Below are positions 5,426-46,339 of a DNA stretch of 64,000 bases, in pieces. Within the stretch, counting starts at the first letter, position 1, and every line of letters starts with the position of its first letter. This stretch comes from Cyathus striatus (lineage: Eukaryota > Basidiomycota > Agaricomycetes > Agaricales > Nidulariaceae). The stretch is from the NCBI GenBank assembly GCA_025738555.1, contig JAOVFP010000001.1:1054001-1118000 (forward strand), read 5' to 3'. Under the pieces are notes generated by a model that was given only the letters and a program-made list of their open reading frames with translations, made no database searches and was not told the DNA's origin. A program made the position numbers and the translations under genes.

Positions 5426-6579
5426 ACTGCTAAAGTAAACCATTCTTTACTTTATTATAGTAAAAATAATACAATTAATATACTGTATAATTTCAACCAA
5501 CTGTTTGGTCACATGTCACATGGGGCCATGAACAGAACAGATTTAGCTGTTGGTCATGCATCACAAAGACCCATGAACACAGGTACAAGGAAATCGAAAA
5601 AATGTGAAAAATCATTAAAATATAGAATAAAATTAGTAGTGATATTTAAAATAGTTTTTATACCAATATATACATCCTGAAGTGTGTAATGAGTATAGTA
5701 AGTGCAGCTGAAAGTCATTCTAATCTATTCCTGCTTGAATTTTGCTTGTCCAATGGCTTAGGCTGCAAACAGTTCACTTCAGGTGTCACGTATTCTATAG
5801 GGCTGTGAACAGAGGTTTGGACCATCACACCTAAAAGGGTCTGAACACTTGGTTGAACTTATCCAGTACTATGAAATGAAGTTGCAAAAAGAATTATGTG
5901 TGTAGCTAGCATGGTTGAGGCAGGAGGTTGATTGGATGTCTTGTTTGTAACAGGTTGTAATTATGTAATGACTAGGGGTAGATGACTGTACAAAGTAATA
6001 TCAGCATCTACATGTCCAATGCTTTAGCAAATTTCTCCATTTTCTTCTTTTCTTGTGTGTCATTGCAAGCATTTCAATGCCAGCTAAGGTATCAGAATGC
6101 TCTTCACCTAGAATTCTTGTGCTCATCTCCAGCACCTGAATCTGCAGCTTCTTTGCATTTGTCCATTTCCCTTGATTCATATATGTTTCTGCAAGATATC
6201 ACACCATCAATGATATATTCTGTGCCCTCCTTGAATCTCCACTGTGACTCATTTTCATATGTATCATTTCTAAATCATTCAAACTACTGTATATGTCTTT
6301 GTTGACAGTTACAGTTTTTTCCAGATTGTACTTCAAAATTCCTAGTCTATATCTTTCTTCAATACCATACTTCCCTACATTTTTCAATATCTTTGCTAAT
6401 ACATTAAATAAATCTTCATAGTATATTGTTGGATAAGACATAGTATATTTCTCTTGGTTTTTAAGAACATGAGGTATAATTGAATTTTGATATATATATT
6501 CTTCAATAGTATCCTCAGGAGAAACTGAGCTTAAAACATAAGTGTCAGCCAAATTTTTTCATATAAACTCAAGGCTATA

Positions 6580-7181
6580 TGATCATGTGTTCTTATAAGC
6601 ACTGGGTCTAATGATCACCTCTAAATTATATAGTATTCTATACTATTAGTGATTGTAATAGTGATCATAAATGATCATTTAGGGATATAGATGGCATATT
6701 GGGGTACTTACTAGTACTAATAGGTTTCTATGGACTATTACTTGTTCTAATGGATTTATAAATGATCATAAGTGATCATTGAGTGATGCAGGTGGTGTAA
6801 TGGGTTATTAGTGATACTAATGGATTTGTAAGTGATCATATGTGATCATTGAGTGATAGAAGTGGTGTATTGGACTAGTACTGGTACTAATGGGTTTGTT
6901 AGTGATCATAAGTGATCATTAGATGATATAGGTGGGATATTGAGCTAGTACTAGTACTAATGGATTTGTAAGTGATCATAAGTGATCATTAGGTGATACA
7001 AGTGGCATATTGGGGTATTAATGGTACTAATGGATTTGTAAGTGATCATAAGTGATCAATCAGTAATAGAGGTGGCATACTAGGTTATTATTGGTATTAG
7101 TAGATCTTAAATGATCATAAGTGCTCATTAAGTGATACAAAGGCATATTAGACCACTATATTAGTACTAATGGATTCGTAA
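6580..7181. repeat. TE1 left arm: ~65-bp tandem repeat with TGATCA palindromes
   Basis: About seven units of the pattern TACTAATGGATTTGTAAGTG ATCATAAGTGATCATT plus a variable tail are visible. Nearly every unit has two TGATCA palindromes ten bases apart, about fifteen in this arm. The inverted counterpart is at 9747-10345. Confidence 0.85.
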
Positions 7182-7640
7182 ATGGTCACACATATCACAT
7201 ATGTGACACATGTGACACACGTCACACATGTCACATTTTGCACGCTGTCACAGTTTGTCACATGTGTCACATTTGTCACAAAATTCATGTTTGTCACGTA
7301 TTTCACATTTGTCACGTATGTCACGTATGTCACGTATGTCACGTATGTTACACATGTCACGTATGTTACACATGTCATGTATGTTACACATGTCACATAT
7401 GTTACACATGTCACATTTTGCATACATATCACAGATTGTCACAGTTGTCACATATGTCACACACTGTCACACTTGTCACACACTATTACAGTCGTCACAC
7501 ACTGTCACATATATCACAGTTTGTCACACATATCACAGTTGTCACATATGTCATATTTTACATGTATGTCACACATGTGACTATTTGTTGTCATATCTGT
7601 CACATTTGTCACACCTTTCACATTGCTGCATCAGTTACAC
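7182..7640. repeat. TE1 left arm: TGTCACA / CACATGTG word array
   Basis: This is a dense run of TGTCAC followed by short purine-pyrimidine spacers (ATATG, ACATG, GTATG), without a fixed period. Because the array is so simple it stays open in several frames on both strands, giving meaningless proteins of repeated Cys, His, Val and Thr. It continues inward as more degenerate copies. Confidence 0.85.
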
Positions 7641-7775
7641 TTTATTCATATATCACATTTGTCATATTTGCTTGTATGACCCTCCTGTTATGTATATCAC
7701 ATATATCACATTCTTCATATATCACACATGTCACACTTCACTTGCATGTAACATCTGTTGTTATATTTTCAGTCT

Positions 7776-7939
7776 TGTTAGATATTCTGAGTTGCACAGT
7801 CTCTGATTCAGACCTTGGTTGGACTTTGGTTGGACTTTGGTAAACACCTTTAGTATATCTGTATTTGTGTTTGAGTCTTTGCTCCATTATCACACTCTAT
7901 TCTCTCAACCACCTCTTTCCACTCTTGTTACTTCTGACA
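7776..7939 (+). mobile_element. Short solo LTR inside the TE1 core
   Basis: The segment begins TGTTAGATATTCTGAGTTGC and ends ACTCTTGTTACTTCTGACA, so it has TG...CA ends. It matches, with an internal deletion, the solo LTR at 47166-47489; both share the start, the CTTGGTTGG...ACTTTGGTA block, and the CTCTCAACCACC block near the end. Flanks are AGTCT (7771-7775) and ATTCT (7940-7944), a 5-bp duplication with one mismatch. It therefore entered the TE1 core as a normal LTR retrotransposon and then recombined to a solo LTR. Confidence 0.75.
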
Positions 7940-8069
7940 ATTCTTCACATTTGTTATGCTTTTTACACATGTTCCATATTCTGACATATTACATATGTTA
8001 TATATCTCTCATTTGTAATACTGTACCATTTAAATCAGTTTGGGATGGTCAAAAATTTGACATGATTTA

Positions 8070-8885
8070 GCATCCCAATGTAGGTATATAAAGTGTATTA
8101 GCTGAGAATAATAACAGGAATAAAGGTGTTGAAAAGTCATAATAGAAGTAATGATGACATGCAAACAGAATGAAAAATATAGTAGTAACATAATGATACT
8201 TTGATTGAGTATAGAAAGTGTCACAAAGAGATAGATGATGTGACAACAGAAGGAATAATTGAATGGAAGATATAAATAAGACAACATACCAGACTAGATT
8301 ACTGAACATGTGATGAATAGACAGAATGAAAATATGACATGTGGCAAGATGATGAAATTGTCAAGACTGTTTCAAAAGTTAAACTCATAGAACATATGAT
8401 GACTGATGAAGGTTGGACAAAATTAAAGGCTGAGTACAGTTATATCTACTATAAGTAACTTTAATCTGATCTGTGTCTGATATATATTTAACAACCAAAT
8501 TAGAACTGGATAAAGAAGGAAATCTGACTGTCAGAAAGCAGTACTGATGAAATATGATTTCTGGCTAGTGTTATGAATATCAAGTTCAACCAAGCACAAG
8601 TAAACAGCAAGTGAAAATATGAAAAATATGATTCTCTTAAAGTAGTCTAGTGCTTTTCATGTGATCTTTGAGTGTAATAAGAACAGTAGTGGGAGTGGGA
8701 AGTGAAGATGAGAGCATGAACTTGATGATAGTAGAGACATCAAGATATTAAGAATGGTGGGACAGTGAATGAGAATCAGGGGGTGGATAAAATAAAGGGT
8801 TCATGTGATTGTGGGAGTGTGCACATAAAAGTCAAAAGTGCAATCTATTTTTTTGAGCTAGAAAGTACCTTAAGAAGAAAGGCAA
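8070..8885. other. TE1 core, unique non-coding sequence
   Basis: This is AT-rich DNA between the LTR and the right array. Frames on the minus strand (8030-8309) are poly-hydrophobic by composition and lack any motif. No hidden transposase fragment was recognised. It forms the loop of the TE1 hairpin. Confidence 0.6.
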
Positions 8886-9746
8886 CATGCAAATGAAGTG
8901 TGACATGTGTGATATATGAATAAAGTGTAACTGATGCAGCAATGTGAAAGGTGTGACAAATGTGACAGATATGATAGCTATACCAAATGTGAAAAAGTAA
9001 CATGTGTGACATGTATAACAAACATGCAAAATGTAATATACATGATATATGTGACATTGTGACACATGTGACATGCATAACAAATGTGATATACATGATG
9101 AAATATATAACAAGTGTGACATGTGTGACATACATATAAAATGTGACATACATGACAACTGTGATATGTGTGACAAACTGTGATATATGTGACAGTGTGT
9201 GACGACTGTAATAGTGTGTGACAAGTGTGACAGTGTGTGACATATGTGACAACTGTGACCATATATGACAACTGCGACCATATGTGACCTCTGTGACCAT
9301 TATATAATATACATGACATATGTGATATGCGTAACAAATGTGATATACATGATGAAATATGTAACAAGTGTGACATATGTGACAACAAATAGTCACATGT
9401 GTGACATACATGTAAAATATGACATACGTGACAACTGTGATATGTGTGACAAACTGTGATATATGTGACAGTATGTGATGACTGTAATAGTGTGTGACAA
9501 CTGTGACAACTGTGACAATCTGTGATATGTATGCAAAATGTGACATGTGTAACATACATGACATGTGTAACATACGTGACATGTGTAACATACGTGACAT
9601 ACGTGACATACGTGACAAATGTGAAATACGTGACAAACATGAATTTTGTGACAAATGTGACACATGTGACAAACTGTGACAGCGTGCAAAATGTGACATG
9701 TGTGACGTGTGTCACATGTGTCACATATGTGATATGTGTGACCATT
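8886..9746. repeat. TE1 right arm: GTGACA-word array with an internal duplication
   Basis: This is the inverted counterpart of the array at 7182-7640, but about 400 bp longer. The block around 9120-9250 recurs at about 9394-9520, with shared strings such as GACAACTGTGATATGTGTGA and GACTGTAATAGTGTGTGACA, so this arm expanded by a segmental duplication of roughly 270 bp. Confidence 0.8.
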
Positions 9747-10345
9747 TACGAATCCATTAGTACTAATATAGTGGTCTAATATGCCTTTGTATCACTTAAT
9801 GAGCACTTATGATCATTTAAGATCTACTAATACCAATAATAACCTAGTATGCCACCTCTATTACTGATTGATCACTTATGATCACTTACAAATCCATTAG
9901 TACCATTAATACCCCAATATGCCACTTGTATCACCTAATGATCACTTATGATCACTTACAAATCCATTAGTACTAGTACTAGCTCAATATCCCACCTATA
10001 TCATCTAATGATCACTTATGATCACTAACAAACCCATTAGTACCAGTACTAGTCCAATACACCACTTCTATCACTCAATGATCACATATGATCACTTACA
10101 AATCCATTAGTATCACTAATAACCCATTACACCACCTGCATCACTCAATGATCACTTATGATCATTTATAAATCCATTAGAACAAGTAATAGTCCATAGA
10201 AACCTATTAGTACTAGTAAGTACCCCAATATGCCATCTATATCCCTAAATGATCATTTATGATCACTATTACAATCACTAATAGTATAGAATACTATATA
10301 ATTTAGAGGTGATCATTAGACCCAGTGCTTATAAGAACACATGAT
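9747..10345. repeat. TE1 right arm: inverted TGATCA tandem repeat
   Basis: This is the reverse complement of 6580-7181, apparently without substitutions over the stretches compared by eye, including the irregular GTGCTCATT unit. Such identity across both arms suggests recent formation or arm-to-arm gene conversion. Confidence 0.85.
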
Positions 10346-11815
10346 CATATAGCCTTGAGTTTATATGAAAAAATTGGCTGACACCACTCCTTAAAATCAA
10401 TCCTGCAGTGTTGAACAACCATATTTTTGCTTCTGTTAGTGGTAATCTATCTTCACAGCAGGATTGTACCAATGGATGAATACTGTATATTGATTTGCTC
10501 TTAGTTTTCTTTATCAATGAAAATGACAGAAGCAATCCAATACTTTCATTAAAAAGCCAGTTGTTCCAGTCACCATTCTCATCTATATTTAGAACTGAAC
10601 CATTTATGTTGGGAAGATATGTACATTCAGTGTCATTTGCAAACATTTCTACATTTTTTACATAATTCTTGACAGCTCTTTCAAACATTGTTTGAGAGAT
10701 GTTTTCATGACACATATATGCAAATGTATTGAGTAAAGTTATAGCATATTCAGCTGCAGCTGCAGTCAATTTATCTGTATTTTTTTTTCATTTCCAGTAT
10801 TTGCTGAATGGAAATTTCCCATGTCTTATACACTGATTTGTTGTATTTTGATGATCCTTGATATTTATCATCATTAAATAATTTTGGACTATACTTGTTG
10901 TAAATTTTGATAAATTCTTCAAAGTTGCACTGTGTTCTAGTAATATATGCACCTGCCATGTCAATGGCTAATGGTAAATAATATAAGTTGCTGACTATCT
11001 GTTGTGCCTCCTTTTGATATATATGTGATTGTCCACTTGTTTTCAAAAGCAACTCAATTGCAGTTGTTTCATTCATTTCAGTCACCTCCATTGAATTAGC
11101 ATGAGTGGCAATTCTTCTAAGTGCAGGATTTCTGCTTGTTATAAGAATGTTTCCTGGATTCCCTGGAGGTAGATACTTTTCAACCATTTCTGGGGAGTTG
11201 TCTGCATTATCAAAGATTAGAAGCCATTCAGGTTTAACAGATGAAATCTGCTGTAAGACTATAGCAGTTGAGAACTCAAATGCCTGAGTACCATGATTTG
11301 CAAATTTTGTATAAATATCTTTCAGACTTTGTATAACTGTATCATCAGATGTTGTGTCAACCCAGAAAATATGAGAAAAACTGTAATCAGTAAGTCATTT
11401 CATTATTCACTACAAAAATCACAGGAAATACCTACTATTCAGCCATTTGATCACAAAATTTTAAACAGATTTGTGTCTTTCCAATACCCCCCATTCCATG
11501 CAGAAGAAACATTTTTCTTCCTAAGTTATCCACAGCATTACCAGTACAATAATGTTCACAAAGTTTCTCAAGATATATCTCTTGTCCCACAAAGTTTGAA
11601 GTTGTACAAGCCATAGTATTTTGAAGTTGAGGAACCAGATCAGCACTTGGATGGTTTGTAGATATGCTTATAATCTGTGAATAATAATCAATTTAGAAGT
11701 AGGATTCATCAATTGCAGTATAAATTAGTATAAAGATACCTGAATTTCTCCTCTGATGTCATTCATTTGTGGTTGATTAACATTGAAGTTATGAGCATTC
11801 GCAAAAGTATGGAAA

Positions 11816-11914
11816 CCCGGAGCACCACGCTCAGAAGCATCAAAATATTTAGTGCTCCAAGCGATGGCTGCTCAGCAGATCGCTTGTGCCTTCACTTAGA
11901 TATCTGTGCTCCGG
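11816..11914. mobile_element. Possible ~100-bp MITE with CCGGAGCAC / GTGCTCCGG ends
   Basis: The inverted words CCGGAGCAC (11817-11825) and GTGCTCCGG (11906-11914) bound a GC-richer segment. Inside it a second pair, AAGCGAT and ATCGCTT, strengthens the fold. It lies just upstream of the first surviving exon of the NB-ARC gene and may explain the loss of the gene's 5' part. No target duplication was identified. Confidence 0.4.
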
Positions 11915-11975
11915 TAATGAAATTCGGTAGCAACTCGCCTCAGTGAGGTTTTTCGCTAGGCGATTACATAAGCAT

Positions 11976-12018: not shown

Positions 12019-12059
12019 TGAGTGATAGACTGCACCTTGGCCTTCTTATAGTTATTCAT

Positions 12060-13430: not shown

Positions 13431-13439
13431 AAATACAAC

Positions 13440-15510: not shown

Positions 15511-16710
15511 TAGGAAGATTGCAGGCTCCTAAAACCAGCACGCTCGTATCTCGCTACAACCTCCTTAGGTAAACAGAGTCAAATATTTGCTTAAGGCAAA
15601 TAAACCTAAGGGAGGTTCTGCTTGATAGAGCAGCTGGCACAAGTCGTCATCGAAATTTCCCCGCGGACCCTTGCCATCAACAGGGAAATCGACGGCGGAG
15701 CACGCCGCGTTCCCACCTCATACTTACCTGCTCGCGCTCATGAGCACAATGATCTACTACAGTTATCTGAGCCTCATACTCTCCACATACTTAAGTATTC
15801 TAAAATCCAATAATATATTTTTGATCTTTCTTGAACTATGCTTGTTGAATGCTGTACTTAATACTTGTATTCCAGTGGAGTGTAGAATAAACTGGATTTT
15901 TGAAAGTTATTGGCCTATAAATGTATATGAACTGGAATGAAAGATTAAAAATAAAGTATCCTGTAGGTATGTACTTCACCGACAGTTAAACAATAAAATA
16001 ACTCAATGCTGAATGCTGGTTGTAATGGAATGACGTGCCTATAGAATAGTTATGCACTATAATAGGTAATGAATGTAAGTAAACGGTATATCAGGCTCTA
16101 TGTGGCATAAGTTCAGCTCACCTTTGCTCTCATAAGTCAAGAGACAACTGGGGAGAGTGGATGACTTCTTAATTTACTTATATAAAAGAATAGATCAAAA
16201 TTTTAATTACTAAGTCGCTGTACCAGATCAATTGGCAAGGAAAGTGCGGCTCCTACCTAAATGGTACGGTGCATTAATAGCACACAGATTGCATAAACAA
16301 TGCTTGCGCTCCAACAGGTTTCCTGCCACCAAAGGCTCATGATACAGAGTCAATAGTGTATACTCAGAAGGTACTTTCATCAATCTATGAAGAAAGACTT
16401 ATAGTGTAATCAACCACAATACAGATATTGCAATAGAAATTATTTTAATATTTAGCAAGATACAATGATGAATACACCAATGGACTCTTCAGAGCATGTG
16501 TTCAGTACTATATGTAACAAAATTTAACAGAGAATGACCACTGATACTTTGAAAATGAAAGATGTTCCACATTGTATTTAAGAACCATGTAAGCCTGATA
16601 CTTATCCTAAGCGATAAGTAGTACATATCAGTGCTGCAGTCAGCAAGCATAGCTCATACTTAAGTACGTGGAGAGTATGAGGCTCAGATAACTGTAGTAG
16701 ATCATTGTGC

Positions 16711-16928
16711 TGTTAAAACTATTGGACTGGACAGGGATTGAACCTGTGACCACCCGTACTCATGACTAGGCACTCTTCCAACTGAGCTACCAGCCCTTGC
16801 CTATACACAAGCAAGAACAGGTACTTAACCAGTTGAGTGGGCTACCAGGCTCATCACCATGGCAGGAGTGCTCCAATATTATACACCCCCATAACCCAGT
16901 CAAGGCTGTCAACCTTGCCAATCCAACA
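16711..16928 (-). mobile_element. 218-bp LTR-like insertion with embedded tRNA-like sequence
   Basis: On the plus strand it runs TGTTAAAACTATTGG...CCAATCCAACA, giving TG...CA ends with TGTT/AACA palindromy. TGTGC is exactly duplicated on both sides (16706-16710 and 16929-16933). The left arm of the host foldback element (15522-15795) shows the empty site GAGCACAATGATC without the insert, so the boundaries are firm. Its minus strand carries a tRNA-like sequence, plus a second A-box-like stretch (CCTGGTAGCCCACTCAACTG, near 16835). A solo LTR of a small (TRIM/SMART-like) retroelement and a tRNA-derived SINE are the two readings; the TG...CA ends and 5-bp duplication favour the first. Confidence 0.7.
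16724..16796 (-). tRNA. tRNA-like sequence (probable pseudo-tRNA / Pol III promoter)
   Basis: The 73-nt sequence has a 7-bp acceptor stem (GGGCTGG with CCAGTCC, one G-U pair), a D arm with canonical A box TAGCTCAGTTGG, and a T arm ACAGG-TTCAATC-CCTGT containing the B box GGTTCAATCCC. The predicted anticodon arm CCTAG-TCATGAG-TACGG does not pair properly and position 33 is not U. It is therefore unlikely to be a functional tRNA. The intact A and B boxes could still recruit RNA polymerase III. Confidence 0.6.
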
Positions 16929-17181
16929 TGTGCTCATGAGCGTGAGCAGGTAAGTATGAGGTGGGAACGCGGTGTGCTCCGCTGTCGATTTCCCTGTTGA
17001 TGGCAAGGGTCTGCGGGGAAATTTCGGTGATGACTTGTGCCAGCCGCTCTATCGAGCAGAACCTCCCTTAGGTTTATTTGCCTTAAGCAAATATTTGACT
17101 CTGTTTACCTAAGGAGGTTGTAGCGAGATACGAGCGTGCTGGTTTTAGAGCCTGGGAAGATCGTAGATATTCCAATAAGAT

Positions 17182-26764: not shown

Positions 26765-28897
26765 TTAGTGTTGGGAACATTTTGATGGTCTGTCACTGTT
26801 TAGTGGTGTTTTTTCAGGTACAGGTCTTGAGCATTTGTTGTTATGATGAGAATTGGAAGATGTTTCTTGGTTAGATAAAAATGAAGGATCGTGTTGTAAT
26901 TCAAGCAGTAATTCTGAATAAACAGAGTTATCCAAGGAATGAGAATTGATGAGATGTGTTAGTGTGGATTTTTCTAATGAGTGTAAGCGTCTGTATTCGT
27001 TACATAGTTCTTCAGAGGGTCTACAAGTGATCTTATCAATTCTGAAAGGACAGAGAATAGCAAGACCTTCGAGAGATTTGACTCTTGATACCATAACATA
27101 TGGAGACTCTGAACCTTTACAACCTTCTAAGTCAATAATGGCCTTCTCCATTGTTTGACCCTGAGCTTTATGTGTCATCATTGCAAAAGCAGGAATCAAT
27201 GGTAGTTGGGTCCGTTTTATAACACATTTTTTCTGGGAATGTGGATGAGTAAAATTCATTTCAATAGTATCTGCAAGAACTACAGCTTGATTGGTTTGTA
27301 AATGAGGTAAAGGAGGGGCAGTCATATGTGCACATTCCACAATACATGAAACTGCCTCCCGTTCACCTAAAGAATTGACAGTATATCATATAGAAAGGAG
27401 AGATCCAATTGATCCATTTAAAATTCCACCACAAACATCATAGTTTTGTGTAATCATTACAGGCATTCCTTGTACCAGAGGTATGTGACCAAGTCTGTAA
27501 TTAGTACATGCAGAATTAAGTGTAAAGAGATAATTTCTTAGATCTTGATCCATTATAACTCCATCCTTTCGTGAATCAATTGCATGATACCAATGAAGTT
27601 CTGTGTTGTGAGTACTGGCATAGTTTTCAGCAGCTTTGTTGTTTAGCAAATCCTTTGTTAGATTGTCATTGACAATTATTGGTGTATTTTCCCAATCTAG
27701 CCAATTTAGTGGGTTGGCTTGGATAGTTCGAGATTTAAGAAGGTTGTAATCAGTGTATGTGCAATTACCTTGTCTTAAACATTCCAGTAAGTCTACAAAA
27801 CAGGAATTCTCTGTACCACTCTGGCACATAACTTGTTTTAGAATAATAACTGTATCAAATGACAGCCAAAGCAATTTCCCACTAATATTTTTTTGACCTT
27901 GGTTGGTAGCAGAATGATATTTTGTAGTGTCTATATTACTATATAGTTTAAGCTGTCCCACAGGTGGTAATTGAGCAAAATCTCCTGCAAATATGACATT
28001 GATGCCTCCAAAAGGAGCTGTGTTTCCTTTTGCTTGTATTAATGTTTTACTAATGTCATGCATCATAGAACATCCTATCATGGAAATCTCATCTATAATT
28101 AAATAGTCAACACCTTCCCAAAGGGCTACCAAGTTTTCAATTGTTTTGGAATTATTTGCAGATTTGTTATTATGATTTAAACAGAGTGCAGCATGTAGAG
28201 TCATTCCCAAAATATTTTGAGCAGCTGCACCTGTGTATGAAGCTAATCGAAAACGTCTTTCTTGTTTGCGTTGGATAAAAAATTCTCGTAAACAATTAAA
28301 AACTCTTGATTTTCCTGTTCCTCCTTCACCTCCTAGATACATTTTCAACTGCTCAGGTTTGTTCTGTAGGCTATGTTTAGCAATAGTAGTGAAGGCAATA
28401 TTTTGTTCAGTATTCAAAGTAAAACATGTTGATAAATTCTGAATTACAATATTTCCATCTGGTGTGATTCTATCAGTGAATCTAGATGATGATTGAACAT
28501 GTTGTTCTGAAATGTTTGAGATTGAGGTAATAAGATCAGAAGAAATTTGTGAACTATTACTGCTTATTGAAACTGGAACAGACAGATTAATTTGGTGAGT
28601 AAGTTCAGAAAATTCATATGTTGAGCTGAATTTTTGTTTCCAACTTTGATGACAGGTGTCATAGGTCTTGCTCCATAAATCTTCCAAAGATGTATCAGTT
28701 GCAATAGTGTCAAAAGGTGTATTGTCACTATTAACAGAGGATGTTTGTGGTTGAAATTGATTAGAAATGGAGTTGAACATACCAGCAGCCACTGCATGAT
28801 TTACACAATCATTAGCATTTTGGTCTTGAATTGAGTATTTCTGAGAATTACAATTTGTTATGGATTCTAAGTGTGCCAGAATATCTTGTAAACAGCT
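26765..28897 (-). pseudogene. PIF1-like helicase C-terminal part, Helitron type
   Basis: The frame is open from about 28897 (SCLQDILAHLES, upstream of the first usual start) to 27389. It meets a single TGA at 27386-27388 and continues in the same frame to 26765. Helicase motifs are in order: Walker A GGEGGTGKS (about 28320), YTGAAAQNILG, Walker B DYLIIDEISMIG (about 28090), FAGDFAQLPPVGQ (about 27975), and after the stop AFAMMTHKAQGQTMEKA and YVMVSRVKSLEGLAIL. These are the SF1B motifs of PIF1. In fungi such frames with a Gly-Thr-Gly-Lys P-loop and 'THKAQGQT' are the helicase half of Helitron Rep/helicase proteins. The Rep (HUH) half is not visible; 28.9-30.0 kb shows no gene, so the copy is 5'-truncated. 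The stop most likely replaces Arg (CGA to TGA). No Helitron terminus was identified. Confidence 0.85.
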
Positions 28898-28899
28898 TT

Positions 28900-30070
28900 C
28901 TCACAACGGGCAGACCTGACTTATCCTTCTACCAAATATTTGTAAAATATACATATGATATGACATGTATTAATCTCTACAATATTGCTTTAATATTTAA
29001 CATATCCTATAGAATAATTGTCCAACTAATATCACATATATATTATAAACATTCTGCGGGTGAGAGCATTTAAGAAAGTACTTAATTATTTAGAATATTT
29101 AGAAAATATAAAACAGTTACTCAACGGCATAATATCTTGAAAAGTCCAACTTTAAATGTTTCCAAATTTTTCGTTAATTTATTTTCATTTTTAAGTAGTA
29201 TTTTGGAAATGTTTCACCGCAAAATATTTTACATGTTCTTCGGAGAAGTTTCTACAAAATATTCTAATAATGTTTGCTTATCTAAGATGCTGATGGGAAC
29301 GATCAGATCATCCGGGATGATCCAACTTTGATCCAACCACCATCGCAACCAACAGCGCATCATCGTGTAGCGACACGTTTGTGTGGGAATGTGGAATCAT
29401 TTTGTAAGCCGCGACTCGTGATATTATCAGAAGAGCGACGAGATTGTGATTAAAGTTAGCAATGCAAGTACAAAATGCTAAATTACTCGGAAAAATGTAA
29501 ATAATGTACAAGTAACTTTGAAGTAAATGTAAATATACAAGAGCAGTGTGCGGCTGAATTCGTTAATGGGTTCGTTCGGTGCTGAGAAACTCGATAGGCG
29601 CTCCATATATCCAATAATAATATTATAATCACTTGAAATCAGTCAGACTGCTACTCAAATCTTTCTATGTTCTAATTTCTTTCCTCCAGTTCTAGTGAAG
29701 TATGATATGAATTGAAATGAGGGGAAAGTAACCTGAATTCACTGAGTGTACGTATGCCAGTTTAAGTAGGTAACGAATGCAGTATGTATGAATGTCCCAG
29801 CTCCTTCCATTCTATATTTTTGTACGTCAAGCAAAAATTTTGAATAAAAATCAGTGGCTGAATCGTGAAAGCTAAGTCATTTAAAATGTTCTAAGAATCG
29901 GGACGAATCTTATAGGATGATCTCCATGCGTAGGCTGCAAGACTGTAGTAATTGTCTGGCATTGAAGGGAATGCGACTGATTATTTATTTAGCTGCTGTG
30001 ATACGCAGGTTAGCAACTATCAGATGATTACTATCAGAAGATCCGAGTAGTCCCAACATGGAGGCCGTGA
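28900..30070. other. AT-rich gene-free stretch
   Basis: No coding signal or terminal repeat was recognised. A palindrome-like GATCATCCGGGATGATC lies at about 29305-29321. Confidence 0.5.
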
Positions 30071-32954: not shown

Positions 32955-35900
32955 TCATTCTTCCAAATAATAAAGATAAGCGGCGAAGAAAAGTACTAAT
33001 AATGCATGTGTGCTCACTCTGTTTAATGATAATATGACCTTCGCTGGTTTTGAAGTCGCAGGATCGCCATAAGGACATGTAACAACATGGCAAATCACAT
33101 CCTCTTCGGCGATGACAAAGATATTGTCATCAAAATCACTGTATGTCAGCTGAACCTGTAACAATGGATTCAGGCGGTAGGGATCCAGATGTTCATCATC
33201 CCGGGAAAGTTCACAATATTTCCTAACAGTAAGAAAATATTCTGCCTTATTACCTTCACGTAACTGCCGTTTATGAACAAATATCTTCTCGATTTGCCCA
33301 GCAACTGCACAGTTATTAGTCCTGAATAATATTTGAGAATTTCCCGCTGACTCTTGCGCCGTACAATACGCAATGCCCTGGCCCCTTAGCCTACGATATA
33401 GTTGCATGTAGGGGCTTAAAGGAAATAAATCATCAACGCGAGCGGTTCTGTGGTGGGCATATTGAAAACCAGCAGTCTTCCCGTTTAGCATCACGAGAAA
33501 CTCTTCATATTCTCCATCGGAAAGAGTACTGACACCCTTGTTCTCATACCACACCGCTTGTTGTATAAGTTCGCCACTTGCCCCAAGTGCAAGAAGATCA
33601 CTTGTCAATGTTCCCTTCAACTCTGTTCCAAAATATTGCTGAAAGGCGGGCTTTAGTTGCTCTAGCACGTCTGGGATACCTTCACACGTCATCAAGGCCT
33701 TAATATTTCCTCCGCGGCAAAAACTTCTTAAAAATGTCAACTCTAGCTCGCCTAATTATATTGAAGAGCTTTCAGAACGTATTTAGTATAATTTAAAGTA
33801 ACAACGAACCGAATTTGCTATTGGTGTTCATTTTTTGAATTATACCGTTGTATCGTTCAAATGCAAATGTCCACCAACCATGCACTGGTCCAAAATTTCT
33901 CATGCATTCAGCCAGATGTAAGCTGAGGTGATGATTCGGTTTCAGTTCTTCAGCGGAGAATAGAACTATAAAAGAACTTAAATAGGAATGTAGATGTTTT
34001 TCCACAATCTGGATATCTTTCTCCGACATCGACCGCATGGTACTCCACCTGATGGCAATGACTAAGTCAATGAAGTTTTTCAACAAATCTTTATGGCAAG
34101 GAGACGCTTCCTCTCGGCCCCACAGGCATGTGAGAGTAATCACCAGACACACCGTACAGAGAGTCCTCCACTGGTCTGCGATTAATTTTCCACCTTTCCT
34201 TGTGCCTAATTCCTGAGGGGGCCTGGTAAGCCAGGAAGGAAAAGTCGTGTTCTTAATATCTGTTGTGATCTCCGTGATCACTGCCTGGTCCAAAACTATC
34301 GGTCTCTCCCCTGGAAGAGGGAGGTTGTAGACGGGCGCTGTGTGAGCCATGGGTACCTTGATTTCAACGTTGGGGTTCTCTACACGCTAAGTGATAAAAT
34401 TAATGAAAATTCGGAAGAAAAGGTAGTCAGATGTACCCATTTTATGAGTGCTTCTACCAGCTCTTTGCTCGGTGGGTTTGATTTCTTGACGTAAACTGAA
34501 TTCTCACGAACGAAGGCAGCTATGTAGGTCTTTCTATGTTCGAGGATAGCATTTCTTGATAACATCTGTATTCCTCGAAGCACTTTCTCGATTTCTTCCT
34601 TTTGTTTCTCAGGGGAATGTGAAAGCATACGTTTGTCGGGAGCAACACTGCTATCCATCCCCCATGAAACGCGGCAGTGATTCTGTAGAATTCCAAGAAA
34701 TAGATTATGCATAGAATCTACCACAGCGTAGCGCGTTGGATCCCAATATGGGAGGCGTAAGAGTTCGGACCACCGTATACCGGATTCTTGCAGCCCAATA
34801 AGACGTGTTTCACGATTCGGAGCATCTCGATATTTGTGTGCAGCTGCTAGGTGTTCCTCGCGTGTACGGCGTTCCCAGGTTTTGTAATTTAAATTGCTAA
34901 TATTGCTTCGAAGCAACTTGCAGAAGGAACAAAAGTGGTGTGCTGTATGAGATACAAATCCTGAAACTTTCTGCAGAGCAGGAAGGTCGGACACCACTAT
35001 GAGTAGAGCACATCATACAAGATATGCGTAATGATGTGAGGCTGGCCATTTAAATTGAATCCCAGGACTCCATAGCTTTAGCAATGATTCAACTAAAGGA
35101 TGTAGTATGTGATTCATTGCATCGACGTCTGGTTCATTCGGACCCGGAATTATGCCAACCAGATAGACATTTTCTATCCTATAACATAGGTGGATGGGCA
35201 AATTCATACAAACCATATATATTCCGCCAACAGAGCTGTGTTTTCCCGCCTGCTTTCGACCGAATGGATTAAACCAGTCAACATTAAGAGTAAAGCTGAG
35301 ACGTAACTCGCCCTCGGTACTATTGAAAAAAAAAATTCTATCAGGTCCTAAAAATGAGCGATAGGCGGTGCCGTCGAATACATCTTTTCGGATGGCTGAA
35401 GGATCGCCTTGAATATTTGGTATATTTTTTAACTTATCTATGTATCCTGGCCGTGACAGGATTCGCACTATCCAAGACTCCATGGGCTGATATCCATAGG
35501 GCATGATTGGCACAGAAGCTGTACCCCGATCCTTTTTCCGCGATATATCAGCCCCGCAAAGATCATCCCCAGGAAACGCTTGAAATGTACAAGTTCCAGG
35601 GTACATATTTACACCCAGATTTGAGGAACGCGGAGGATATAGTGCATAACATTTAGGACAGCATGCATACGTTATGACATCAGGATTGAGCTCGAATTCG
35701 TCCATCGCAGTGCGTATGTCAATCGGAAAGCTAGAGGCCCCACCTACGATCTTTAAAGGATTTCCTTGGGTGGGTTTGAACAATCCAAGCTTCTGCACGT
35801 ACGTAATACAAGAGCTTGCCACAATTACTTGCAAAGCTACGAGAAGGAAATTGCTACCAGGGCGGGCTAAACCTGATAATAGATGAAGAATAACCGGTGT

Positions 35901-36916
35901 CGCAAGACATGCTAGCAGAGGTCCTGGTATGGCTTCCATACGAGACCAATGTCAGTGAAAGCGCGCTTTGCTAAAATGAGCTTGAAACATTAAGGTGAAA
36001 TAAAATAAGTCTCACCGCAATCAATGACTTGAGGAATCTGCGAGTTATCTCCAATTTTCACAGAGCACCAGTGCTTCCACGCTGTTCGTATAGAATCATT
36101 CAAGGTTGCCAGATGATTTTGCATATCTTGTATGATTTTCAACTTCGCTGATTCAAGTTCGATATCATCTGGATACATTGCTTCTTCACCAAGGGAAGTT
36201 ATTGCGTTCTCGATCCAGAGCTTATGAAGACTAAACACACAATTTCTCTTAAAAAATATTTCAGGAATCGCATCCTCAGTATTTTCACCATCTTCGTTTT
36301 CAAACGTAATATCAGAATAAGTGAATGAATAGCTTCGACGCTCGAATTCTTCTTGATAGGTACGGATCAGGACAAGTGCGTTGGTGCCTACGTGCTGTTT
36401 AGAATAATCTACATACGTGTAGAGAAAGTATCTTACGTCTTTGTTCTAGGGTAGGTAGGAAATCACTCCGAGGTACGATCGGTGCGGGTTGGTCTGTACA
36501 TTGTTTACAATATTAATAAAAATCGTATACATGAAAGACTAGTGCTCACCTCCCTCTGGAGCGCGAGGTGTATCATTATTTTCCTCCCTTTCGTCGTTCC
36601 CAGCAAATCCTTCAACTCCATCTATGTCCATCTGATCGTCTCTGATCCATCTGGTAGAAAATAAGGGGTTATCGGCTGCAGCAGGCCTTCCTTGGCCAAT
36701 TGTTGCGTTCATGACAGCATCACTAAATTCCTCTCGGAATGTCGCCTCTAAGTTATTTTTCTGCCATTTAGCAAAATTCTTTTGATGGATCACCCAAACT
36801 CCTCGCTTTAGTATCAATCCTGGCACCCTTTTCTTGGACTCTGCGTCAAACACTGTATGTTGAGTACAGATGTTACATTGGCAAAGTCTCGGTGTGCTAG
36901 CGTCCAAAGGAGCCAT
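32955..36916 (-). CDS. Tnp2-type (CACTA/EnSpm) transposase, nearly intact, one TGA stop
   Basis: The start MAPLDASTPRLCQCNICTQH begins a Cys-rich N-terminus. Exons continue through QPAPIVPRSDFLPTLEQR, the block FERRSYSFTYSDITFENEDG...SLHKLWIENAITSLGEE (about 36350-36190), and the long core exon (35939-34380). That core carries YACCPKCYALYP, the VDWFNPFG block with its Asp, YMVCMNLP, NVYLVGIIPGPNEP, and VVDSMHNLFLG with the second acidic residue. The next exon (34378-33793) has HLAECMRNFGPVHGWWTFAF and ERYNG with the Glu, then NTNSKFG, which splices to GELELTFLRSFCRGGNIKAL. Introns are short GT...AG. The only defect is TGA at 35013-35015 in 'AYLV*CALL', where the family has Arg. A product of about 1000 residues would cut and paste a CACTA-like element, so this copy was active recently. 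Confidence 0.85.
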
Positions 36917-38400: not shown

Positions 38401-38419
38401 AAAAAAAAGAAGGAAAAAC

Positions 38420-38806: not shown

Positions 38807-40699
38807 AGAGTTTCACCAAACAATATACATGTAGATCGTGTAAATACTATACATCAATCTGAAGCCCGTAGAACGCAGACTAGATTTCGTCTATCTGATC
38901 AGTATATACATATACCTGTATGCGAACATCCTCTCGTATTATTTGTGTATTATAGTATAGTATGTCATATTAATTCTAATAGTGCTTATGGTCAAAGATA
39001 TAGGTATATCTCCAAATGCTACATGTTACTTCCCCAAAAATACTCCAAGATCATGAGTTGGTATATTTTTCCTCTTACTGTTTTCATATCTAAGCTTTCC
39101 TTTCCAAGGATGGACTGTGGTCTCATCCCCGTTCATTGCATATACCTGGAATTCTTGTCCAAATAAAGCGAAGTTTCCTGGATTCACTACTATGACATGT
39201 TGGATCATCCTATCCGGAGATACTATCTGTACAAATCTTGCGGGTATATCAATGCACTCTTCAGGGCCGGTAGGATCGGCATCTAAGTCAAGTCGGAAAC
39301 ACTTTGTGGTATTCACCAACTCGACAAAGTTGCCAATTCGGTTTTCATAACGTCCATTTTCAAATCCTGCATCGTCGGGTGTCGGAAAGGAGCCAGCAAT
39401 AATAGTATGTAGTTTTTTCCTTTTTAAATCCGATTTATATTCGACTAGCTGTGTGATCCAATGTCCTGTATTAATATTGTTAGCATTGACATATCGTCTA
39501 TTGCTGTACAATTACACACCATCGAAACAATCTGATGAGTCGGGTCCAGCATTGGTGGGAATGGTTGCAGTGCCTGCTACAAACATACCCATTGACTCCG
39601 GAAGCGAAGCAGACGGTTGCAATGGAAGATGTGAAGGGTTGTTCTCAGGAACTATGAATGTATCTGGTAAGTCTCGTGAGTTTGTCTAATGATCTGAAGA
39701 ACTAACTACGATGACGAAAAGATAACAATTCAAGATCTTCGATATTGGAACTAGAACCTGGCTTCATGTGGTGTGAGATGGTAATCAAATAATAATGTGA
39801 TAAAGCTACCTGTGGAGTTTTTGAACTGGGATTCCACGCAGGCGTCTGTGATCCAATCCCATAATCGTGTTCCCAATGTGGTGTTGAACAAGGAGGTAAT
39901 GGTTGTTCAGGAAGACTTCTGGAATCTGGAACATTTGTCGTCAAATTATTAAATCTGTAAAGTATTATTAGATACTGGCGGAAGCATAATGTACTGTGTA
40001 GATACCGGGGATGAATATATCCTTCAATGACACGCTCTCGCAGCGATTTGAAGTCATCAGATGCGTCTGTATCTCCACTACTGCGACGCCATTGAAATTT
40101 ACATCTTGTAGTATTCCAAGCTCTCCTTTCAGAGGACCAGCTTTGATTATAATGTAACGCCTATATAAAGATTTGTAGCGATCGTTTCGCATGAGCCTGT
40201 CATCTATTGAAACGGGCTCAGTACGATTGCTAGATGAGCTTGCAGGGAATCTGCCGAAGTCGCTATCCTGCCACCTAAATGTCGTATTTCGATGAACTTC
40301 GTCGCAGAAGTCTAAATTCGAAGATAGGACCTGTATGTGATTACTCTACGTAATATTAGAATATATATATGATGTTATTCCCCAGGTGAATATTACCTTC
40401 TTTAGCAGAAAAGTGACCATCATGATATTGTCCTCTCCAATCCTCCCATATGGTTCACTGTTGATAACCATTCCAACCGATCCTTCATGCTCGCCAGAAA
40501 TCACTCGAACACCATCTCCGAGCTTAAAGCATTTCTGCAACAGACTTAACGGATATACGAATACACCTGTATGTGAATTGGCGAGTGGTGTCAGCCAATT
40601 TATTCACAAATTAGCCTGAAAAAATGAGTGCCACAATCATATTTTCCAGGCAAAATTGAGTGCTGTTTTTATAAGGCATATTGAGTGAATGTAATGTAA

Positions 40700-41150
40700 T
40701 AGTGATCATTGGCACTCATTTAGTTATTATACTTCATTATTGGACTGTAATATTATTGAATATGAGGGCACTCAAAAGTGATCATTTTAAGAATATTAGA
40801 AGGTGATCATTGGCACTCATTTATGTATTGGTATTGATTACTAGGGAATTATATTAGTATAGTATGAGGACACTCAAAAGTGATCATTTAAAGAATATTA
40901 GAAGGTGATCATTGGCACTCATTTATGTATTGTTGTTGATTACTAGGGAATTATATTAGTATAGTATGGAGGCACTCAAAAGTGATCATTTTGAGAGCAT
41001 TAGGAGGTGATCATTGGCACTCATTTATCTATTATTGTTGATTACTAGGGGATAGTATTAGTATAGAATGAGGGCACTCAAAAGTGATCATTTAATGAAT
41101 ATTAGGAGGTGATCATTGGCACTCATTTATGTATTGTTATTATTGATTAC
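40700..41150. repeat. TE2 left arm: ~115-bp tandem repeat with paired TGATCA
   Basis: About four units contain ACTCAAAAGTGATCATTT, AATATTAG, AGGTGATCATTGGCACTCAT and ATTACTAGGGAATTATATTA. Each unit has two TGATCA words. The inverted copy is at 44225-44680. Confidence 0.85.
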
Positions 41151-41157
41151 TAGTTGA

Positions 41158-41790
41158 TCTGCGCTTCACATATTTCCCACGCTTCGCATTTGTCACACAC
41201 TTCCCACTTGTCACGTTGGTCACACATATTCCCGCGCCTCATGTTTCTCCCACACATCGAATTTGTCACGTACTTGATGTGCGTCACGTTCGTCACACAT
41301 ATTCCCGCGCCTCATGTTTTTCCCGCGCATCACATTTGTCACGTACTTGACGCGTGTCACGTTCGTCACATATATTCCCGCGCTTCATATATGTCACGTA
41401 CTTCACACGCGTCACGTCCGTCACACATATTCCCGTGCTACGCATTTGTCACGTACTTCCCGCGTGTCACGTTCGTCACATATATTCCCGCGCTTCACAT
41501 TTGTCATAATTTTCACGTGTGTCACGTCTGTCACAAGTCTCTCACACTACGCATATATTGCACATGTCACGCTTTAGCGCGTTTGTCACGCTTTAGCGCG
41601 TTTGTCACGCTTTAGCGCGTTTGTCATGCTTTGCATGCTTTGCATGCGCGTCACGCGTCACGTTTGTCACGTTCTTTATAAGCGTTACGCTTTTATTCAT
41701 GTCACACATCTCACACTATTTGTCACACATTTCACACTCGTCACACGTGTCACGTCTTTGAGGCGCGTCACGCTGTGACGATCTGCATGC
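41158..41790. repeat. TE2 left arm: TGTCACG / TTCCCGCGC array
   Basis: The repeat is TCCCGCGCNTC then ATTTGTCACGTACTT and CGCGTGTCACGTTCGTCACA, with a period of about 70 bp. It then collapses into GTCACGCTTTAGCGCGTTT three times, and short TCACAC words. It is much more GC-rich than the TE1 array. Open frames here are artefacts of the repeat. The inverted counterpart is at about 43580-44222. Confidence 0.85.
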
Positions 41791-43159
41791 ATGTCACACT
41801 TTTATCAGATTTTTCTGTCTCTACCACTATTCAAGTTGTCATGAGAGTGGAGTAAGTATGTAATAGTATAGAGTGAATTATATATGCAGAGGAAACAATA
41901 TGTACTTGTAGAATAGAAGATTGTAACATGGAAAATGACAATTAGAAAGTTATAGAAGTGTGGTAATGACAAAAAACTAGAATGAAAAATGTAGAGTGTA
42001 TATGTAGTAGAAGTCTTACCCCCACTGACAGAGCATGAGAAATTTGGAAATGGGATGATATGATATTCAATAATCAGGACTAGAGATGTAATGAAATGAC
42101 AAAGTAAAAACTATAATAGTTAGTCTGAATATGAGAGATGATGAGGTGATTATGATAGAAATGAATATTTGGAAATATTTAACAATGTCATGTCTCATTC
42201 TATTCCACTAGGGATAAGAACTGCAGAGGAGATAGTCTAGGTAGCAGAGTAACCAGTACACATTATTAAGGTGCATGGAGGTAGTGAACAGGTACAGAAG
42301 TAGTGGAACATTGGCTTCAACATGTGTGTTGTGCCCCTTGGACTTCCAGTTCTGTATTTAGAACAAAGCAGAGTAAGTGACAAAATAGCAGAGTTGGCTG
42401 AAGGCTGTAGACCATAGTAAACTAGTGATGCACCTCTAGATTGTAGTCATATGTAAAATGGCCAAGGCTGGAGAATGAGGTAGAACAATAATAAAGAGAA
42501 GGGACAAGTAAACAGTTACAAGTAAACATTAGTAAGGAAGAGTTTGATATATAACATACACAGTCTGGAGGAAATGTACATAATCTGGAGTAAACCTGGA
42601 GTTGACTTCAATGGTTTGGGAATTGTCATGGATATGACAAACAACTGAACAGAAAAGGACATATACTGAAAGAACTACATATGGATAACAAATCTGAAAG
42701 AATGGTGAGTCTGTGATTCCACATCACATCAAACTCACATGTCTCAGTCATTAGATGATCATGATTCTTGCATTAACCATTGGTTATTCTTATATCTTCA
42801 ACACACATTATTAAGTCACATCTATGCTTACTCTATATGATTACATGATACTTCTACACTGTCATGTGTTTCACATCTCTGATTTATGTTATATAGTTCC
42901 TTTAGTATGAGTATCCATTCATACATATGAAATCCCCTCCTGTACCCCTCTCCACTTTCTTGCTCAGTGGCCATAACTTGCTTTTCTATTCTTTATTTTA
43001 GTGTCAACTACATCATCACCTTTGTTTCTTCTTGTTCTCTTTTCTGAAGGCCTACTTTGTCTTTTCTCCTTTCTTGCCTAAGAAAAACTTACTGTCATTT
43101 TTCTATAGTCATGTGCAGTATTGTCATACAGGGTCTGAATCAATGACTGACTTGTCAAT

Positions 43160-43299
43160 AGGGAAGTTCAATCTTGACCATTTTGTCACATTGCTACAGA
43201 TCAGTCACTAAAGCAACACTACAATTGTGCCAAAAAAGTTTAGTGCATGTTACAAAACAGTTGTAGCTGTATCATGTATCATCAAGATTGAACTTCCCT
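43160..43299. mobile_element. 140-bp MITE inside the TE2 core
   Basis: AGGGAAGTTCAATCTTGA (43160-43177) pairs perfectly with TCAAGATTGAACTTCCCT (43282-43299). The flanks are AAT on both sides (or TA if the terminal bases are counted as target), as for Tc1/mariner- or PIF-type MITEs. It has no coding content. Confidence 0.7.
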
Positions 43300-43579
43300 A
43301 ATGCAAGAGGCTGAATTACACTACTAAGTAATGAGCTATAGGTTAAATGTGGCATCACTGAGTGCTCTGATTCCTTGGATATGAAAGATACAGAAAAATT
43401 TTCATTATAGACATGTTGGAACCCTATCAACATGTCACAATCATGATACACATGCAAGCATGATGTGCTTGAAATGTATTATACATCTCAAAGATGTGAC
43501 AAAAGTAACACTTATGATGTGTGTAAAAAGCATTATGAAAGCCTCAAAGACATAATGAATATGATGCATGTGCAAATCA

Positions 43580-44222
43580 TGAGAAACAGATGTGACTTAT
43601 GTAACGAACGTGACAAATGTGACGCGTGACGGGCATACAAAGTATGACAAATGCACTGTGATGAGCATAAAAGCGTGACAAATAGATGTAAGATGTGTGA
43701 CATGCATAAAAGCGTAACGCTTATAAAGAACGTGACAAACGTGACGCGTGACGCGCATGCAAAGCATGACAAACGCGCTAAAGCGTGACAAACGCGCTAA
43801 AGCGTGACATGTGCAATATATGCGTAGTGTGAGAGACTTGTGACAGACGTGACACACGTGAAAATTATGACAAATGTGAAGCGCGGGAATATATGTGACG
43901 AACGTGACACGCGGGAAGTACGTGACAAATGCGTAGCACGGGAATATGTGTGACGGACGTGACGCGTGTGAAGTACGTGACATATATGAAGCGCGGGAAT
44001 ATATGTGACGAACGTGACACGCGTCAAGTACGTGACAAATGTGATGCGCGGGAAAAACATGAGGCGCGGGAATATGTGTGACGAACGTGACGCACATCAA
44101 GTACGTGACAAATTCGATGTGTGGGAGAAACATGAGGCGCGGGAATATGTGTGACCAACGTGACAAGTGGGAAGTGTGTGACAAATGCGAAGCGTGGGAA
44201 ATATGTGAAGCGCAGATCAACT
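43580..44222. repeat. TE2 right arm: inverted GTGACA/GCGCGGGAA array
   Basis: This is the reverse complement of the left array over the parts compared by eye. At its inner edge it grades into single-copy DNA with isolated TGTGAC words. Confidence 0.85.
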
Positions 44223-44224
44223 AG

Positions 44225-44680
44225 TAATCAATAATAACAATACATAAATGAGTGCCAATGATCACCTCCTAATATTCATTAAATGATCACTTTTGAGTGC
44301 CCTCATTCTATACTAATACTATCCCCTAGTAATCAACAATAATAGATAAATGAGTGCCAATGATCACCTCCTAATGCTCTCAAAATGATCACTTTTGAGT
44401 GCCTCCATACTATACTAATATAATTCCCTAGTAATCAACAACAATACATAAATGAGTGCCAATGATCACCTTCTAATATTCTTTAAATGATCACTTTTGA
44501 GTGTCCTCATACTATACTAATATAATTCCCTAGTAATCAATACCAATACATAAATGAGTGCCAATGATCACCTTCTAATATTCTTAAAATGATCACTTTT
44601 GAGTGCCCTCATATTCAATAATATTACAGTCCAATAATGAAGTATAATAACTAAATGAGTGCCAATGATCACTATTACAT
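44225..44680. repeat. TE2 right arm: inverted ~115-bp tandem repeat
   Basis: This is the reverse complement of 40700-41150, unit for unit, including unit-specific differences such as GAGCATTAGG in one unit. Confidence 0.85.
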
Positions 44681-46339
44681 TACATTCACTCAATATGCCT
44701 TATAAAAACAGCACTCAATTTTGCCTGGAAAATATGATTGTGGCACTCATTTTTTCAGGCTAATTTGTGAATAAATTGGCTGACACTTATGAATTGGCAA
44801 GTCTTAACATTGCACTATCTTCTTGGATATCCTGAATGGAAGCAATAGAGTATGTTCCGTGATTTAGTGATACCTTTACCTGATCACCTATTCGTATGCT
44901 TGACGCCAGTATTGCGCGTCTCGTGTGGTCCAGAATTTGAGCAGGTACATGCCTGCAGTTCTGGAAAGCTCTTAGCTCTGTCATTGTTGGAATCGCTTCA
45001 ACCTGGTAGAATTTTTCGATATCGAGTTTTCGTCGTAGAATAAATCCTTCCATCGTATAGAATGAACCGCGAAAAAGATATCCAGTGATAACATTTTTAT
45101 CAGAACCTTCGTGTTGAACCACAAATTTATCTGGGCTTGTCTTTCTTGCGAGATCGGGGTTAAACAGATTACAGTGTGGGTGAGACTGTGAAGAGCCTGG
45201 GGACCGCTTTCGTTTCAAAGATCTCTTGTAGATCACTTGTGGAAGATGAATAACGTCAATCTGCAGAGTGCACTGGCATACATTCGTGATGAAGGCGAGG
45301 TCGTAACAGTATTTCCCTTTCAACCTTACCCAAGTGTGCTGAGAAAGTATGTATGTTGACCCGTTAACTTTGTAGAAAGAAACCCACGCCTCTGTCGGCG
45401 CTGGGCGGATGTATTTGGAATATACGTCTTGATAAATAGAAGTGACGGCCTGAATGTCACTAATGTTATGAGCCTCGACATATACGTGACCCGGAATAAC
45501 CACTGATGCAAATGCACTGCGTATATGCTTTGAGCCAGCTTGATATGAGAGTGCGTGTACAATAAGTTCCTCTGATCCATCCTGTGAAATCATATTACAG
45601 TTGTTTTCAACATAACAAGCTCGAATTCCACTTACCTTCACTGGAACATCAAATAACGGCCAGTCATCGTCACGTATTCCCTCGTGGCTAATAGAATGCT
45701 TGCTCTCGGTAAGCTGTGAATTGGTTTCCTTTGGCGATTCGCTACTTCCTTCATTGTTCCCGTACTTGTCGAGCAAGTATGCAATGAAACCGTGGTTTGG
45801 TGCTGATTCAACAGCACGTGTTAATGCCAGCCGGCTGATAGGGATATTATCTTCGTCGTCCGTGCCATCGATATCCTCGTCGTCGAAATGGTCGTCGATG
45901 AAGTCGTCTACGCAATTAGCATAATATTACCTCTTGAAGGTCATAATACATACCGGCACGGTCTGTGTCCGCTTCATCGTCGGTGGGCGACTCTGTCGAT
46001 ACCTCAGCTTCCAAATCTAAGAATGACTTCTCTTCATTAGCATCAGGCCCAATATCTTATACTCTTCAGCTCTTACCTCTACAAGCTGTCTCTTGGTTGT
46101 TTTCTTTTTCATACCGCTCACACTAGGCGGTTGAGAGATAGGTATTTCATCGTCAGGGTCGTTGTACCACGTAATGTCGTGTGCCTCCTTCAATGTGCCA
46201 TTTTGATTTAAAGCGCAGTTTTCTTCACTCATTGTATATACTATCCTAACTACGCTGAATACTACTTTTCCGGAGTCGATGCGAATAGAGTGGAAGAAAA
46301 AAATTAAAAAGGCGAGGTTCAATGAGTTAATCCAAAATC

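Follow-up and report, generated by a model that had tools for sequence, protein, structure and literature searches.

The stretch examined here, a 64,000-nucleotide window of contig JAOVFP010000001.1 from Cyathus striatus (positions 1,054,001 to 1,118,000), carries two palindromic elements, TE1 at 6537..10389 and TE2 at 40583..44791. Both belong to the foldback structural class, in which a short non-coding middle is enclosed by long inverted arms that are themselves repetitive, and the only open reading frames (ORFs) within them, as judged by translation rather than by Pfam search, are translations of low-complexity arrays. A first-pass annotation had described them as a family of transposable elements that are palindromic, lack coding sequence, and follow a conserved layered plan, one that it could not name. 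The description holds, and the disclaimer was too strong: TE1 and TE2 look like foldback (Galileo-like) derivatives of KDZ (Kyakuja-Dileera-Zisupton) transposons, whose coding members have already been described in fungi.

The sequence GTGTCAGCCAA is present at all four ends of TE1 and TE2, and in each arm a tandem repeat is followed further in by an array of TGTCAC words. The same plan is built from different repeat units, of about 70 bp in TE1 and 102 bp in TE2. Self-comparison of the window gives arms of 858 nt at 97% identity for TE1 and of 1026 nt at 100% identity for TE2, in keeping with the near-identical kilobase arms reported initially. TE1 (CATAA...CACTC, end family A) opens with a C-type tip, the pentamer CATAA followed by GTGTCAGCCAA (6537..6552, plus strand), and closes with a G-type tip, GAGTG followed by GTGTCAGCCAA as read on the minus strand (10374..10389). 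Between them lie the left end-module tandem repeat, 6.5 units of 70 bp containing the gapped word TCAT-N6-TCAT (6731..7188, plus strand), the left TGTCAC array, directed inward (7185..7624, plus strand), the core, defined as the longest stretch without an inverted self-match (7750..8884), the right TGTCAC array, also inward (9043..9742, minus strand), and the right end-module tandem repeat (9790..10191, minus strand). The target duplication CTTAAAA flanks the element at 6530..6536 and 10390..10396. TE2 (GAGTG...TTATG, end family B) has its G-type tip, GAGTG and GTGTCAGCCAA, on the left (40583..40598, plus strand) and its C-type tip, CATAA and GTGTCAGCCAA in minus-strand reading, on the right (44776..44791). 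Its layers are a left end-module tandem repeat of 4.3 units of 102 bp (40702..41141, plus strand), a left TGTCAC array (41161..41753, plus strand), a core defined in the same way (41746..43150), a right TGTCAC array (43609..44212, minus strand), and a right end-module tandem repeat with TCAT-N6-TCAT (44221..44672, minus strand), and it is flanked by AATTGGC at 40576..40582 and 44792..44798.

Two points of the initial description had to be revised, the element boundaries and the length of the target duplication. Comparison of flanks places the element ends 5 nt outside GTGTCAGCCAA, with outer pentamers that are unlike each other at the two ends, and the limits given above follow from this extension. 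The duplication, first read as 8 bp, is 7 bp long. It was scanned at lengths of 5 to 10 bp and offsets of 0 to 8 in 42 end pairs inspected by sequence, which cover roughly one tenth of the ends and were picked because they lay close together, resembled TE1, or were linked to KDZ. The best setting, 7 bp with offsets of 5 and 5, was exact in 24 of the 42 pairs, against at most 5 for 8 bp at any offset; when right flanks were permuted among the pairs, the mean was 0.57 and the maximum 5. If one mismatch is allowed, the 7-bp duplication is seen in 31 of the 42 pairs. The 24 copies with exact duplications have 24 different duplication sequences.

Frame restoration gives the same length. Removal of TE2 together with 7 bp restores an ORF of 454 codons, part of which has a weak match to Spt5-NGN (E 0.003, below the cut-off), and removal of TE1 with 7 bp restores an ORF of 242 codons adjoining an NB-ARC ORF; with 6 or 8 bp neither frame is restored. 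Natural empty sites exist for both elements. That of TE2, at C1:1148392-1148697, is identical to the joined site over 306 of 306 nt, and ten more uninterrupted copies are found at 90–98% identity; that of TE1, at C1:622504-622754, is 97% identical over 251 of 251 nt. The TE1 host ORF (window 6202-11394, minus strand), beside the NB-ARC ORF, has 38 other genome matches to its site, at 72–97%, and thus belongs to a large gene family. The 306-nt TE2 site (window 40349-45926, minus strand) has 11 uninterrupted copies at 90–100% on C1, C7, and C9 besides the window's own. Ten of the 12 Spt5-like places form five convergent inverted pairs, 34–74 kb apart (C1:1094424/1148392, C1:1990184/2024273, C1:6056548/6110195, C9:1651661/1697741, and C7:623582/697252), which may mark the limits of a very large unit, either mobile or duplicated; the 40.4–64 kb part of the window would then be one portion of it.

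The shared ends are not due to chance: GTGTCAGCCAA has 764 copies (370 + 394) in the 107.45-Mb genome, compared with 18 (10 + 8) for the reversed pattern, while CATAAGTGTCAGCCAA has 329 copies and GAGKGGTGTCAGCCAA 230, with none for their controls. TE1 and TE2 are real insertions and belong to a set much larger than the two elements first described, with hundreds of element ends in at least seven end families, according to our own grouping. The outer pentamer of C-type ends is CATAA, with variants CATGA, CACTA, and TATAA, and that of G-type ends is GAGTG or GAGGG (GAGKG-type), with variants GAGTA, AAGGG, and GAGGT. With at most one mismatch per pentamer, 39 of the 42 pairs are heterotypic, combining one CATAA-type and one GAGKG-type tip, and among these 24 have an exact duplication, 7 have one with a single mismatch, and 8 have none. 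By contrast, all three homotypic pairs (L021, L045, and C1:7619715-7622866) lack the 7-bp duplication (Fisher P 0.014). On C1, 29 adjacent convergent pairs lie at most 20 kb apart; after dropping 9 in which a tip falls outside the two strict types, 17 of the remaining 20 are heterotypic and 3 homotypic (P 0.0026). We read these data as meaning that the two tips are not interchangeable and that homotypic pairs are recombinants.

Elements with like ends that encode a KDZ transposase are found in the same genome. A profile search with KDZ (PF18758) returned 159 matches, many of them fragmentary, and none in 14 control genomes. The first-pass annotation had proposed to look for an autonomous relative between the same ends, and such relatives were found as long elements with 7-bp duplications and a KDZ domain. 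One of them, C13:1906110-1924089, has the tips CATAA and GAGTG, an exact duplication (AATATTA), and inverted end repeats of 673 nt at 96.4% identity, made of 70-bp units with TGATCA; its end stretches are 82–84% similar to TE1. It carries CxC2 and KDZ domains, the former (PF18803) detected at E 1.4e-20 in L051:3433-3681. In the second, C3:1980708-1998016, the duplication TCTACAC is exact and a KDZ match lies at 1994249. Both thus hold between their ends the transposase domain that defines the KDZ superfamily, with the associated CxC cysteine cluster in the C13 element, whereas TE1 and TE2 are gene-free. When terminal stretches of 220 nt were clustered (at least 120 nt at 75%), KDZ-linked ends grouped with four foldback families: A (that of TE1), B (that of TE2), C, and D. 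In addition, a closing end lies within 6 kb downstream at 6 of the 27 listed KDZ loci of C1–C3 (5 G-type and 1 C-type), against 0.56 expected under uniform placement (P 2.7e-5), an excess that genomic clustering of transposons could inflate; an end in the wrong orientation was seen at 1 of the 27. Those homologues of the KDZ query that carry names are fungal, many from Agaricales (Amanita, Pholiota, Cyathus).

Three other candidates for coding elements were rejected. C14:2821628-2849837, which would measure 28 kb, has the tips but a duplication with three mismatches; the long ORFs of C8:1661712-1673506 appear retroelement-like by eye; and C8:2711034-2718545 has no KDZ among the matches listed, the ORF tested being without a Pfam match. 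Two ORFs without a Pfam match lie inside the C13 element at L035:8114-8780 (minus), on the strand opposite to the transposase, and could represent an accessory gene. An ORF with a CxC6 cysteine cluster, of the kind associated with KDZ transposases, is found at L047:32-751, about 4 kb from a CATAA end that is unpartnered in the stretch read.

Certain words are kept while the sequences of the arms turn over. An unbiased search for gapped words, run on the outer arms of seven representatives, one per family, returned TCAT-N6-TCAT as the sole gapped word with at least three copies in six families, and two copies were found in the seventh. Its orientation over the seven representatives is polar, with 38 inward copies against 1 outward, and in 30 shuffles the best gapped word was common to two families at most. 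It is also present in all six KDZ-element stretches tested, with 9, 10, 7, 3, 2, and 1 copies and none outward, one of these being an inner stretch of the C3 element. Since its 10-bp period corresponds to about one helical turn, the spacing suggests binding on one face of the DNA, and TCAT-N6-TCAT is thus a predicted protein binding site. The layer plan first proposed stands as regards the order of tandem repeat and TGTCAC array, but TGATCA is only the commonest version of the repeat: family D has TACTCATAAGTACTCATT, with no TGATCA in the outer arm of its representative, and TCAT-N6-TCAT is the more widely shared word. The arms of 28 foldbacks, 83 kb in all, contain 1413 TGTCAC words, most of them on the inward strand, against 47 reversed words. 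The TGTCAC array lies inward of the end repeat in most copies; the left arm of L011 and the right arm of L025 are without it, and no word pair was found in the left half of L012. Three TGTCAC words 9 bp apart have 271 + 548 genome matches, compared with 0 + 1 for the reversed word, although about 56 of these places belong to one simple array at C1:4758743. This array (C1:4758743-4759261) consists of TGTCACAGT repeated almost perfectly with a 9-bp period for about 520 bp and lies within none of the tip pairs seen.

The interiors of the elements behave differently from their ends. Cores are common to most families' members despite unrelated flanks (27 of 39 within-family pairs have a core match of at least 150 bits), and their orientation relative to the tips varies. 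The interiors of L039 and L040 run in opposite directions and share 99.8% identity over 895 nt, and further flipped pairs are L009/L027 (96.2%), L013/L025 (97.7%), and TE1/L010 (86%). Flips of this kind would be expected if the two arms of a palindrome recombined with each other. Furthermore, the inner cassette of TE2 (array-core-array, 41133..44241) matches that of L016, an element with family D ends, piecewise and in collinear orientation from position 546 to 3654, with 83.6% identity in the left array, 93–94% in the core, and 89.6% and 74.6% in the right array, while the left outer modules give no match (0 bits). In TE2, the innermost TCAT pairs start at 525 on the left and at 3660 on the right. 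With L014, a member of its own end family, TE2 shares 548 outer nt at 84%, the core being just 78.5% identical. In a matrix of 24 elements and 237 cross-family pairs (thresholds of 150 bits for the core and 100 bits for the left outer part), 11 pairs have a common core, 4 of them above 200 bits and none with left-outer similarity; 60 have outer similarity (among A, A2, C, and G, and between E and F), none with a common core; and no pair shares both. These counts are approximate: the middle third of each cassette served as its core, and for L012 the rule that sets the boundary did not work. Conversely, L019 and L024, both of family E, have outer parts that are 95% identical and unrelated cores. 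The array-core-array part of TE2 resembles that of a family whose ends are unrelated (core 94%), and modules thus appear to reassort: the inner part of an element can seemingly carry the end pieces of another family, which suggests evolution by exchange of parts.

Taken together, TE1 and TE2 are very probably non-autonomous foldback elements mobilised in trans by KDZ transposases encoded in the same genome, with 7-bp target duplications. Each element consists of two parts. The outer end module comprises the 5-nt tip, GTGTCAGCCAA, a family-specific sequence, and the tandem repeat with TCAT-N6-TCAT, and the KDZ-encoding elements have modules of this type too; the inner cassette is made of TGTCAC array, core, and TGTCAC array. 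The transposase may discriminate left from right by the CATAA-type and GAGKG-type tips and may bind the TCAT-N6-TCAT repeats, 10 bp apart. Recombination would keep the arms alike and, between long arms, would flip the interiors relative to the tips, while selection for mobility would keep the two tips different. Cassettes may acquire end modules from other families, for which ectopic recombination or conversion close to the boundary of the TCAT and TGTCAC layers is the probable route. As a more tentative extension, to which we give limited credence, the inner cassette might be a parasite of transposons that persists and switches KDZ lineage by replacing both end modules, with only those combinations that have one CATAA-type and one GAGKG-type tip staying mobile and with the TGTCAC array serving as a recombination adaptor. 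The role of this array is the weakest point of the mechanism. The 5-nt left/right tip code and the 10-bp-spaced TCAT pair in the end modules are testable candidates for end recognition.

A number of observations weigh against the KDZ assignment or its generality. The data are the sequence of one genome of one species, from which transposition itself is inferred, and the pair tests rest on a non-random sample of about a tenth of the ends; two heterotypic pairs outside the 42, L022:4824-8603 and the C14 pair mentioned above, also lack the duplication, bringing the heterotypic total to 31 of 41. Just two KDZ-bearing elements have been verified with both tips and an exact duplication. For family B, that of TE2, the link to KDZ consists of the single ends L058 and L059, which are 76–78% similar, and C2:1201755-1218948 was rejected as a complete autonomous partner of TE2, since it lacks a duplication and the 501 nt sampled contain no array. 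No KDZ-linked end falls in E or F, two of the six terminal clusters with several members, or with L022 and one end of L011, and at 21 of the 27 listed KDZ loci of C1–C3 no closing end lies within 6 kb. The TGTCAC array is present on the CATAA side only of the C13 element, and none was seen in the C3 element, of which five stretches totalling about 2 kb were sampled. As for the gapped word, the reversed control TACT-N6-TACT reaches 5 copies in family D and 6 in family G, since any word that falls in a tandem repeat is multiplied with it. Families A, A2, C, and G have distantly related outer modules, as do E and F, so that the seven families reduce to some four independent groups, and the sharing of the word may in part reflect common descent.

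Known systems, compared here on the basis of the available parts of the cited papers, show both likenesses and differences. Kyakuja elements of Laccaria have 7-bp target duplications and CA..TG termini and no inverted repeats (Kojima 2025, PMC12730594). The elements described here share with these KDZ/Kyakuja transposons of Agaricomycetes a KDZ-type transposase, the 7-bp duplication, and a 5' end starting with CA, but they differ in having termini of the form CA..TC, inverted ends that measure 673 nt and contain tandem repeats (in the C13 element), and many gene-free palindromes. They are not filed as Kyakuja for this reason, nor do they show the 8-bp duplication of Zisupton, given the low score of that length in the scan. 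KDZ1-3 of Cryptococcus, of about 9–11 kb, likewise have a KDZ domain, a CxC-type cluster, and inverted repeats, but with 8-bp duplications (4–8 bp in KDZ2 and KDZ3), inverted repeats of 139–241 bp, and CxC1 instead of CxC2; the available part of that paper describes no foldback derivatives of them (PMC12810828). In Marasmius oreades, end motifs of KDZ and Plavaka elements have been characterised, including a KDZ terminal inverted-repeat motif, and KDZ elements are called understudied (PMC8290104). The literature considered describes KDZ transposons mainly through their coding members, and among the open-access papers listed by searches none was recognisable as a description of KDZ foldback derivatives, supplements and Repbase being outside this scope.

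The ends shared with KDZ elements could in principle have been acquired by nested insertion or capture only, the foldbacks themselves being hAT7-type or other elements with 7-bp duplications. hAT elements with duplications of this length are known from rust fungi (PMC12730594), and the retroelement-like ORFs between the tips of C8:1661712-1673506 indicate that nested insertions do occur, but this explanation is very unlikely in view of the two KDZ-bearing elements with exact duplications around their own tips and of a foldback similarity that spans the end modules. Another possibility is that the foldbacks belong to the P superfamily, as does Galileo of Drosophila, the closest analogue and one that appears functionally alike with a different transposase. 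Galileo has 7-bp duplications, long arms whose tandem repeats contain transposase binding sites, duplication-free chimeras, and a central region common to copies with arms of three subfamilies (PMC3573991, PMC3688188), and four matches to P-element-type domains are present in the genome of C. striatus. However, the domains found in coding elements whose ends match are KDZ and, in the C13 element, CxC2, not those of a P-type transposase, and by coordinates none of the four P-type matches lies inside an element examined. Galileo also has a P-superfamily THAP transposase and, in the available text of these papers, no described need for two different terminal pentamers. Membership of the P superfamily is thus extremely improbable, and the elements are not filed as Galileo. 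The P-type matches are located at C6:2481791, C20:2208968, C10:302152, and C20:1447211, one of them in an open frame of 393 aa. Finally, spread chiefly by segmental duplication or palindrome recombination of elements that are not mobile, as might be supposed from the 3 homotypic and 8 heterotypic pairs without duplication and from one C3 KDZ end whose flank is common to another copy (L053/L056), is refuted as the main explanation, since the absence of flank similarity at all 12 TE1-related loci tested, the 24 different exact duplications, and the empty paralogous sites of TE1 and TE2 require insertion. With foldback derivatives of KDZ transposons as the preferred explanation, the comparison suggests that a Galileo-style evolution, with foldback arms, module exchange, and duplication-free chimeras, has arisen with an unrelated transposase.

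Besides TE1 and TE2, the window contains other features. An inverted repeat at 15529-17148, with 220-nt arms at 96% identity and 1180 nt between them, is probably a different element, because its ends are without GTGTCAG. An ORF of 504 aa at 27386-28900 (minus strand) encodes a PIF1-like helicase, possibly part of a Helitron. Between TE1 and TE2, the region 33793-35951 (minus strand) gives a Transposase_21 match (E 6e-11) together with sub-threshold matches to Plavaka and DUF4218, and corresponds to a CACTA/Plavaka-type element.

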